NCBI GenBank assembly: GCA_029938465.1
Contig: JAOZUW010000006.1
Coordinates: 1-40,022 of the forward strand
Reading direction: 5' to 3'
From: Bacteroidales bacterium
Lineage (GTDB): Bacteria; Bacteroidota; Bacteroidia; Bacteroidales; UBA12170
Length of the DNA stretch: 40,022 nt
The translations under genes and the position numbers were made by a program. Shown one piece after another: positions 1 to 2,142 of this stretch (the first letter of the stretch is position 1; each line of letters opens with the position of its first letter). The notes beneath the pieces are model-generated. The model saw nothing but the letters and a program-made list of their open reading frames with translations. It was not told where the DNA came from and made no database searches.

Positions 1-5
1 GGTAT

Positions 6-40
6 AAAAAAAGCTTGCAACATAAAATATTGTAAGCTTA
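6..40 (-). terminator. Rho-independent terminator downstream of tRNA-Tyr
   Basis: AAGCTTGCAA (11-20) pairs with TTGTAAGCTT (30-39), one G-T wobble; read on the minus strand it is followed by a T-run (plus A6-A12). Confidence 0.8.
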
Positions 41-47
41 AAAGGGG

Positions 48-129
48 TGGGGAGAGGAGGATTCGAACCTCCGAAGGCTTCGCCAACAGATTTACAGTCT
101 GCCCCATTTGACCGCTCTGGAATCTCCCC
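48..129 (-). tRNA. tRNA-Tyr (anticodon GTA)
   Basis: Minus strand GGGGAGA...CAGACTGTAAATCTG...GGAGGTTCGAATCCTCC...TCTCCCC A; class II long variable arm; 7-bp acceptor stem; anticodon GTA. Confidence 0.97.
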
Positions 130-145
130 AATATTTTTAAGAACG

Positions 146-197
146 AGCCGATGAACGGATTTTAACCACTGATTCTGATCAACGTCACTACATCGGC
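146..197 (-). pseudogene. tRNA-Thr-like element lacking the D arm and a normal anticodon loop (probable tRNA relic)
   Basis: Minus strand GCCGATGTAGTGACGTTGATCAGAATCAGTGGTTAAAATCCGTTCATCGGCT: perfect 7-bp acceptor stem GCCGATG/CATCGGC, T-arm-like AGTGG-TTAAAAT-CCGTT, short TTGAT-CAGA-ATCAG hairpin, no D arm. Located directly upstream of tRNA-Tyr. Confidence 0.75.
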
Positions 198-232: not shown

Positions 233-262
233 CAAAAGTAGCCAAGAATTTTAATATTACAA
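233..262 (-). promoter_or_regulatory. Bacteroidota housekeeping-sigma promoter for the tRNA-like/tRNA-Tyr unit
   Basis: Minus strand TTG (262-260), N19, TACTTTTG (240-233), matching the -33 TTG / -7 TAnnTTTG consensus. Confidence 0.7.
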
Positions 263-361: not shown

Positions 362-1057
362 ATGGCTCAATCAAAAAATACTAACGATCAAACTGAAGAA
401 AGATTTGAAGCAGTAGAAGAAGCTTTGTCTAAATCGGAACAAATAATTGAAAAACACCAACAAAGTATTCTAACTATAATAGGTGTAGTAGTTTTAATAG
501 TAGTAGTGTATTTTGCTTTTGATAAATACTATCTACAACCACAAGAAAAAGAAGCTCAAATAGAAATGGCTCAAGCTGAAAACTTTTTCGCACAAGATTC
601 TGTGAACATTGCCCTTAACGGACAAGACGAACACTTAGGCTTTCTTGATATTATTGACGAATATGGAATGACTAAAAGTGCAAACTTAGCTCATTATTAT
701 GCAGGTATTTGTTATCTTAAATTAGGAGAATACCAAAATGCCATTGATTATTTAAAAGGTTTTAGTGCCAACGATTTAGTAGTAGCTCCAATGGCTATGG
801 GTGCCATTGCCGATGCTTATATGGAACTTGGAGAAACTGATAAAGCAATAAATTACTATTTAGATGCTGCAAATCAAGGTGTAAATGATTTTACTTCGCC
901 TTTATTTTTGCAAAAAGCAGCTTGGGCTTACGAAAGTCAGGGTGATTTTGAAAAAGCTTTAAACATGCAAAAACGTATTAGTAAGGAATTTGCCAATACA
1001 ACAGAGGGTAGAGAAGCAAAGAAATATATTAGCTATTTAGAAGAAAAAATAAAATAG
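362..1057 (+). CDS. Membrane-anchored tetratricopeptide-repeat protein
   Basis: N-terminal cytoplasmic stretch, one TM helix (SILTIIGVVVLIVVVYFAF), then TPR-like repeats. Start moved to ATG 362 because the upstream TTG lies inside the -7 box. Confidence 0.85.
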   Translation: MAQSKNTNDQTEERFEAVEEALSKSEQIIEKHQQSILTIIGVVVLIVVVYFAFDKYYLQPQEKEAQIEMAQAENFFAQDSVNIALNGQDEHLGFLDIIDEYGMTKSANLAHYYAGICYLKLGEYQNAIDYLKGFSANDLVVAPMAMGAIADAYMELGETDKAINYYLDAANQGVNDFTSPLFLQKAAWAYESQGDFEKALNMQKRISKEFANTTEGREAKKYISYLEEKIK

Positions 1058-1152: not shown

Positions 1153-2142
1153 ATGAAAAATAGGGAAGATTTACGTATTGTTTTTATGGGTACACCTGAA
1201 TTTGCGGTTTCTAGTTTAGATGCTTTATATAACAACGGATATAATATTGTTGGTGTGATTACAACCGCTGATAAAAAAGCTGGGCGAGGAAAAAAACTGC
1301 AGATCTCTGCTGTAAAAAAGTATGCACAAGAAAAGCAAATTAAAGTATTAACTCCTTTAAATCTAAAAGATCCTGGTTTTTTAATAGAACTACAAGCACT
1401 AAAGGCAGATTTGCAAATTGTAGTGGCTTTTCGTATGCTCCCAAAACAAGTATGGGATATGCCACTTATGGGTACATTTAATTTGCATGCATCCCTTTTG
1501 CCACAATATCGTGGTGCAGCTCCTATTAATTATGCCATTATTAATGGCGAAAAACAAACTGGAGTAACTACTTTTTTGCTAGACCAAAAAATAGATACTG
1601 GTAAAATCATCAAACAAGAAAGATGTGATATCTCTTCTACAGAAACAGCAGGAGGCCTTCATGATAAATTGATGCTACTGGGTGCTCAATTAGTTATAGA
1701 AACAGTAGAGTTAATTAGACAAGACAAGGCTATTGCTGTTGATCAGGAAGGATTTAGCGATACGATTCAATTAAAGACAGCTTCGAAAATATATAAAGAT
1801 GATTGCTTGATAAATTGGAATCAAGATGCCAAAATTATTTATAATTTTATTCGTGGTTTAAGCCCATATCCTGCAGCATGGACTTATTTGAATAATAAAT
1901 CACAAAAAGAAGCCATAACTATGAAAATTTATGCAGCTTCTATCGTTGAAAGTATAAATAATATAGAAATTGGCAATATCTATAGTGATGGTAAAAACTA
2001 TCTTAGAGTAAAAACAATGGATCATAGCATTGATATATTGGAATTACAGCTTCAAGGAAAAAAAAGAATGCCAGTTGCTGATTTTTTACGAGGTTTTCAA
2101 TATAATACAAACTTAACATATTCAACCTCCTCAAAGCCTTAG
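1153..2142 (+). CDS. fmt: Methionyl-tRNA formyltransferase
   Basis: VFMGTPEFAVSSLDAL, NLHASLLPQYRGAAPINYAIINGEKQTGVTTF and C-terminal domain; start revised to MKNREDL at 1153. Confidence 0.96.
   Translation: MKNREDLRIVFMGTPEFAVSSLDALYNNGYNIVGVITTADKKAGRGKKLQISAVKKYAQEKQIKVLTPLNLKDPGFLIELQALKADLQIVVAFRMLPKQVWDMPLMGTFNLHASLLPQYRGAAPINYAIINGEKQTGVTTFLLDQKIDTGKIIKQERCDISSTETAGGLHDKLMLLGAQLVIETVELIRQDKAIAVDQEGFSDTIQLKTASKIYKDDCLINWNQDAKIIYNFIRGLSPYPAAWTYLNNKSQKEAITMKIYAASIVESINNIEIGNIYSDGKNYLRVKTMDHSIDILELQLQGKKRMPVADFLRGFQYNTNLTYSTSSKP

Follow-up and report, generated by a model that had tools for sequence, protein, structure and literature searches.

A 52-nt element on the minus strand (146..197) of a 40,022-nucleotide stretch of a Bacteroidales draft genome, hereafter referred to as the window, is very probably a tRNA-Thr(UGU) pseudogene located in the leader that precedes a second tRNA-Tyr gene, and a product of ordinary decay rather than a novel type of RNA. 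The element has kept an intact 7-bp acceptor stem, and its interior is deleted and scrambled (GCCGATGTAGTGACGTTGATCAGAATCAGTGGTTAAAATCCGTTCATCGGCT, minus strand). The window corresponds to contig C17 of a 3.07-Mb genome that is 94% complete.

Sequence and redundancy of the tRNA-Thr-like element

A first-pass annotation had described a minus-strand element of 52 nt with a perfect acceptor stem and no D arm, and our analysis of the sequence confirmed each of these features. The acceptor stem consists of 7 perfect base pairs (GCCGATG/CATCGGC) with an unpaired discriminator base, and a tRNA-Tyr(GTA) gene lies 16 nt downstream. This stem is identical to that of the intact tRNA-Thr(TGT) encoded by the same genome on contig C182, and to that of its relatives, and is thus inherited rather than matched by chance. 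ARAGORN did not call any tRNA at 146-197, and the Rfam tRNA model (RF00005) gave no match there at E<=10, the neighbouring tRNA-Tyr scoring 56.1 bits. We did not find a 7-nt anticodon loop with an anticodon in the element, the proposed loop being CAGA (4 nt). With no tRNA call, no D arm and no 7-nt anticodon loop, the element has thus lost the structure needed for tRNA function.

The similarity between the middle of the element and the middle of tRNA-Thr was not significant, since 384 of 2000 shuffles were equally good, and the naming of the inner arms is therefore insecure. In addition, no other copy of the element or of its middle was detected in the same genome, leaving the new middle segment without a recognisable donor.

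The first-pass annotation had proposed to look for a full tRNA-Thr elsewhere in the genome, and we found one: contig C182 carries an intact cluster of tRNA-Thr(TGT), tRNA-Tyr, tRNA-Gly(TCC) and tRNA-Thr(GGT), followed by tRNA-Trp. As this cluster is complete and supplies the isoacceptor, the copy in the window is redundant, and the intact tRNA-Tyr(GTA) of the window (45..130 with ARAGORN, 48-129 with Rfam; minus strand), which is identical in sequence to that of C182, is the second one of the genome.

The orthologous locus in related genomes

The divergent gene for a TPR-repeat protein (362..1057 in the window, plus strand), beyond which lies fmt, allowed us to recognise the orthologous locus in relatives. 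The comparison across related genomes, also suggested by the first-pass annotation, revealed a full-length tRNA-Thr at this locus: two genomes of the same genus (G009, contig C121, and G003, contig C38) possess there an additional and complete tRNA-Thr(TGT)-Tyr-Gly operon. The TPR proteins of these contigs share 76-77% identity with that of the window, and fmt is also adjacent to the TPR gene in G009 and in a third relative, G002. The first 10 nt of the tRNA-Thr genes of G009 and G003, their last 12 nt with the discriminator base and their trailer (CGTTCTT, 139..145 in the window, minus strand), which serves as a marker of orthology, are all identical to those of the element. As seen in G009, the 3' end of the gene and the trailer make up a 21-nt identical block (TCCGTTCATCGGCTCGTTCTT) that reaches 7 nt beyond the gene.

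Upstream of the operon, the window carries a promoter-like sequence of the Bacteroidota type (TTG-N19-TACTTTTG; 233..262, minus strand), recognised from sequence only, and its boxes (TTG...TACTTTTGCAC) are common to the window and to the intact operons of G009 and G003; the Bacteroidota promoter consensus is TTG/TAnnTTTG. Taken together, the shared ends, trailer and promoter boxes indicate that the element is the remnant of the tRNA-Thr gene found at this position in G009 and G003. The full gene at the orthologous loci and the intact tRNA-Thr(TGT) elsewhere in the genome lend strong support to the default explanation of the first-pass annotation, a tRNA-Thr that decayed in front of tRNA-Tyr.

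Other relatives exhibited different losses. In G002, the closest relative whose tRNA-Thr was lost as well, tRNA-Tyr is kept at the orthologous locus and tRNA-Gly is lost. At its Thr position, the strongest 22-nt similarity is with the anticodon arm (16/22; 5 of 1000 shuffles did as well) and no acceptor stem is left, so that this position holds, judging from the match, a probable and different tRNA-Thr relic. We rejected a relic shared by G002 and the window, since G002 keeps similarity to the anticodon arm and has no acceptor stem; as different parts were kept, the two losses of tRNA-Thr look independent. In six further members of the genus, no tRNA was detected at the orthologous locus. We also observed in G003 a second tandem tRNA-Thr-tRNA-Tyr pair (contig C38, L073:1104-1288), about 400-500 bp after the first operon, whose tRNA-Thr reads CATCGAC instead of CATCGGC and thus has a mismatch in the acceptor stem, which suggests another duplicate that has only begun to decay.

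We searched 393 genomes of the order with a pattern that combines a shortened Thr-like acceptor stem and a tRNA-Tyr behind it, and retrieved the window genome and one match in G097. The latter does not resemble a tRNA, and the truncated form followed by tRNA-Tyr was thus found in none of the 392 other genomes. When GTDB genomes were scanned using the TPR protein, several matches were contigs already included and the other three were distant (38-41% identity). Our literature search did not retrieve, in the library of papers covered, any directly comparable decayed tRNA inside a bacterial tRNA operon.

The varied losses among the relatives are consistent with relaxed selection acting on a redundant copy of the operon, the lineages having lost different parts of it. 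An ancestor within the genus would have carried an extra promoter-tRNA-Thr-tRNA-Tyr-tRNA-Gly-terminator operon beside the TPR and fmt genes. Since these tRNAs are already provided by the main Thr-Tyr-Gly-Thr cluster, the spare operon would have been free to lose its Thr and Gly genes by decay, tRNA-Tyr being kept. In the lineage of the window, the Thr gene would have lost about 21-23 nt of the D, anticodon and variable regions, and the remainder would have taken substitutions. We infer that the remnant has no function of its own: it is presumably still transcribed within the leader of tRNA-Tyr and would be discarded when RNase P matures this tRNA.

Predicted folding and alternative explanations

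The first-pass annotation had also drawn tRNA-like arms in the element, and fold prediction supported one of them. The acceptor stem had a pairing probability of ~1, also when placed inside the full leader-Tyr-terminator RNA. The stems proposed for the anticodon arm (TTGAT/ATCAG) and, with 5 bp, for the T arm (AGTGG/CCGTT), however, both need nucleotides 28-29 (AG) of the element and therefore cannot coexist at full length; every pair of these two stems had a probability of 0.00 in the predicted ensemble. The three-arm fold reached -9.3 kcal/mol compared to -18.1 kcal/mol for the best fold, which is a different, extended imperfect hairpin. Overall, the element folded modestly better than its shuffles (z -1.97, 8 of 200 being as good), with the inherited stem included in this comparison. 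A T stem-loop stacked on the acceptor stem, as in a minihelix, is not predicted, the T-arm pair probabilities being 0.00; acceptor-only substrates are possible.

One observation weighs against simple decay. In the best alignment, none of the 23 end positions was substituted compared to 6 of the 26 middle positions, with 23 nt deleted (Fisher P=0.024, for boundaries chosen post hoc and a single known sequence of the truncated form). Unchanged ends with a changed middle could reflect the retention of an acceptor hairpin, but the same contrast is also expected from one recent complex internal deletion or replacement. Given the choice of boundaries, this possible single rewriting event and the extension of the unchanged 3' block into the non-genic trailer, the signal for retention is weak. 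According to this explanation, which we consider unlikely, decoding was lost and the hairpin was preserved as a mark for processing by RNase P/RNase Z, a 5' leader structure or a mimic for the tRNA-Tyr precursor. It would be in line with the stable prediction of the acceptor helix in the full transcript and with previous results in vitro, where RNase P cuts minihelices and even minimal acceptor-stem duplexes (PMC11221534). The remnant could therefore be cut, although cutting is not equal to function. On the other side, the truncated form is known from one genome only, the orthologous tRNA-Tyr of G002 persists without the acceptor hairpin, the second tRNA-Thr copy of G003 has a mismatch in this stem, and the predicted fold, only modestly better than shuffles, does not combine an acceptor stem with a T arm. 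The retained minihelix or tRNA mimic raised by the first-pass annotation is thus unsupported, and we regard it as quite improbable that selection preserved the acceptor hairpin of a defunct tRNA gene in the tRNA-Tyr leader for the sake of processing or stability.

Two other explanations were weighed against the pseudogene. A functional tRNA-Thr without D arm, used in translation as in metazoan mitochondria, would account for the intact acceptor stem and the unpaired discriminator base. However, the element has neither TGT nor any other recognisable anticodon loop, its anticodon and T stems have two nucleotides in common, an intact tRNA-Thr(TGT) is present in the genome, and no bacterial tRNA is known to serve in translation without one of its stem-loops (PMC11551756). 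We therefore rejected it on anatomy and redundancy, its probability being close to negligible. An assembly artefact, in which part of a tRNA-Thr that is full-length in the true genome is missing from the contig, appears very unlikely. The element does lie close to one end of a draft contig of metagenome type, since C17 begins 44 nt beyond tRNA-Tyr, and the repeat formed by the two identical tRNA-Tyr genes sits at this contig end. Nevertheless, the element occurs only once in the genome and is continuous with unique sequence towards the TPR gene, and it departs from the intact gene through substitutions in addition to the deletion, which a collapsed repeat would not yield.

Surrounding features, other tRNA loci and known systems

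After tRNA-Tyr, the window carries a terminator-like hairpin with a T run (5..41, minus strand; predicted fold), which was not reported by a stringent terminator scan, and lacks the tRNA-Gly that is present in G009 and G003. Within the coding region of fmt, an Rfam tp2 match (1534-1634, minus strand) scored 33.1 bits, below the gathering score of 50, and is probably due to chance.

We observed two other unusual tRNA loci. In G050, another genome of the order (contig C36, L063:1019-1590), a 131-bp unit repeated 4.4 times in tandem (96% matches) separates an intact tRNA-Thr from an intact tRNA-Tyr; the unit contains the start of tRNA-Tyr (GGGGAGATTCCAGAGCGGTCAAATGGGG) and an altered anticodon arm (TCCCGACTAAATCGGGA), with no matching 3' acceptor strand, and recalls the tRNA-derived tandem repeats of the Escherichia coli tyrT operon. 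In G005 (contig C101, L070:1344-1631), the tRNA-Tyr located between tRNA-Thr and tRNA-Gly was not called by ARAGORN because of a roughly 27-nt insertion in its T loop. The self-complementary part of this insertion (CTCACGAGCGAAGCGAG) was found nowhere else in the G005 genome, and this tRNA-Tyr may be another decayed spare tRNA or carry an unusual insertion.

The locus illustrates how duplicate bacterial tRNA operons lose genes one by one, with related species showing the stages at the same position: the full Thr-Tyr-Gly operon, tRNA-Tyr next to an acceptor-stem relic, tRNA-Tyr next to another relic, and no tRNA. The finding is of modest interest and would matter more only if the hairpin were retained by selection.

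Like known bacterial tRNA pseudogenes, the element is tRNA-derived, redundant with an intact isoacceptor, missed by tRNA models and intact in its orthologues; it is unlike them in that its acceptor stem happens to be intact. With the D-armless tRNAs of metazoan mitochondria and the laboratory-evolved E. coli mini-HisT (PMC11551756), it shares the missing D arm and the intact acceptor stem. In contrast to these, it has no usable anticodon loop, its T and anticodon stems overlap, and it exhibits no sign of use in decoding. Finally, the perfect 7-bp acceptor stem and unpaired discriminator base resemble those of the RNase P minihelix substrates, which combine acceptor and T arms, whereas no T arm is predicted for the element, whose preferred fold is an extended imperfect hairpin.
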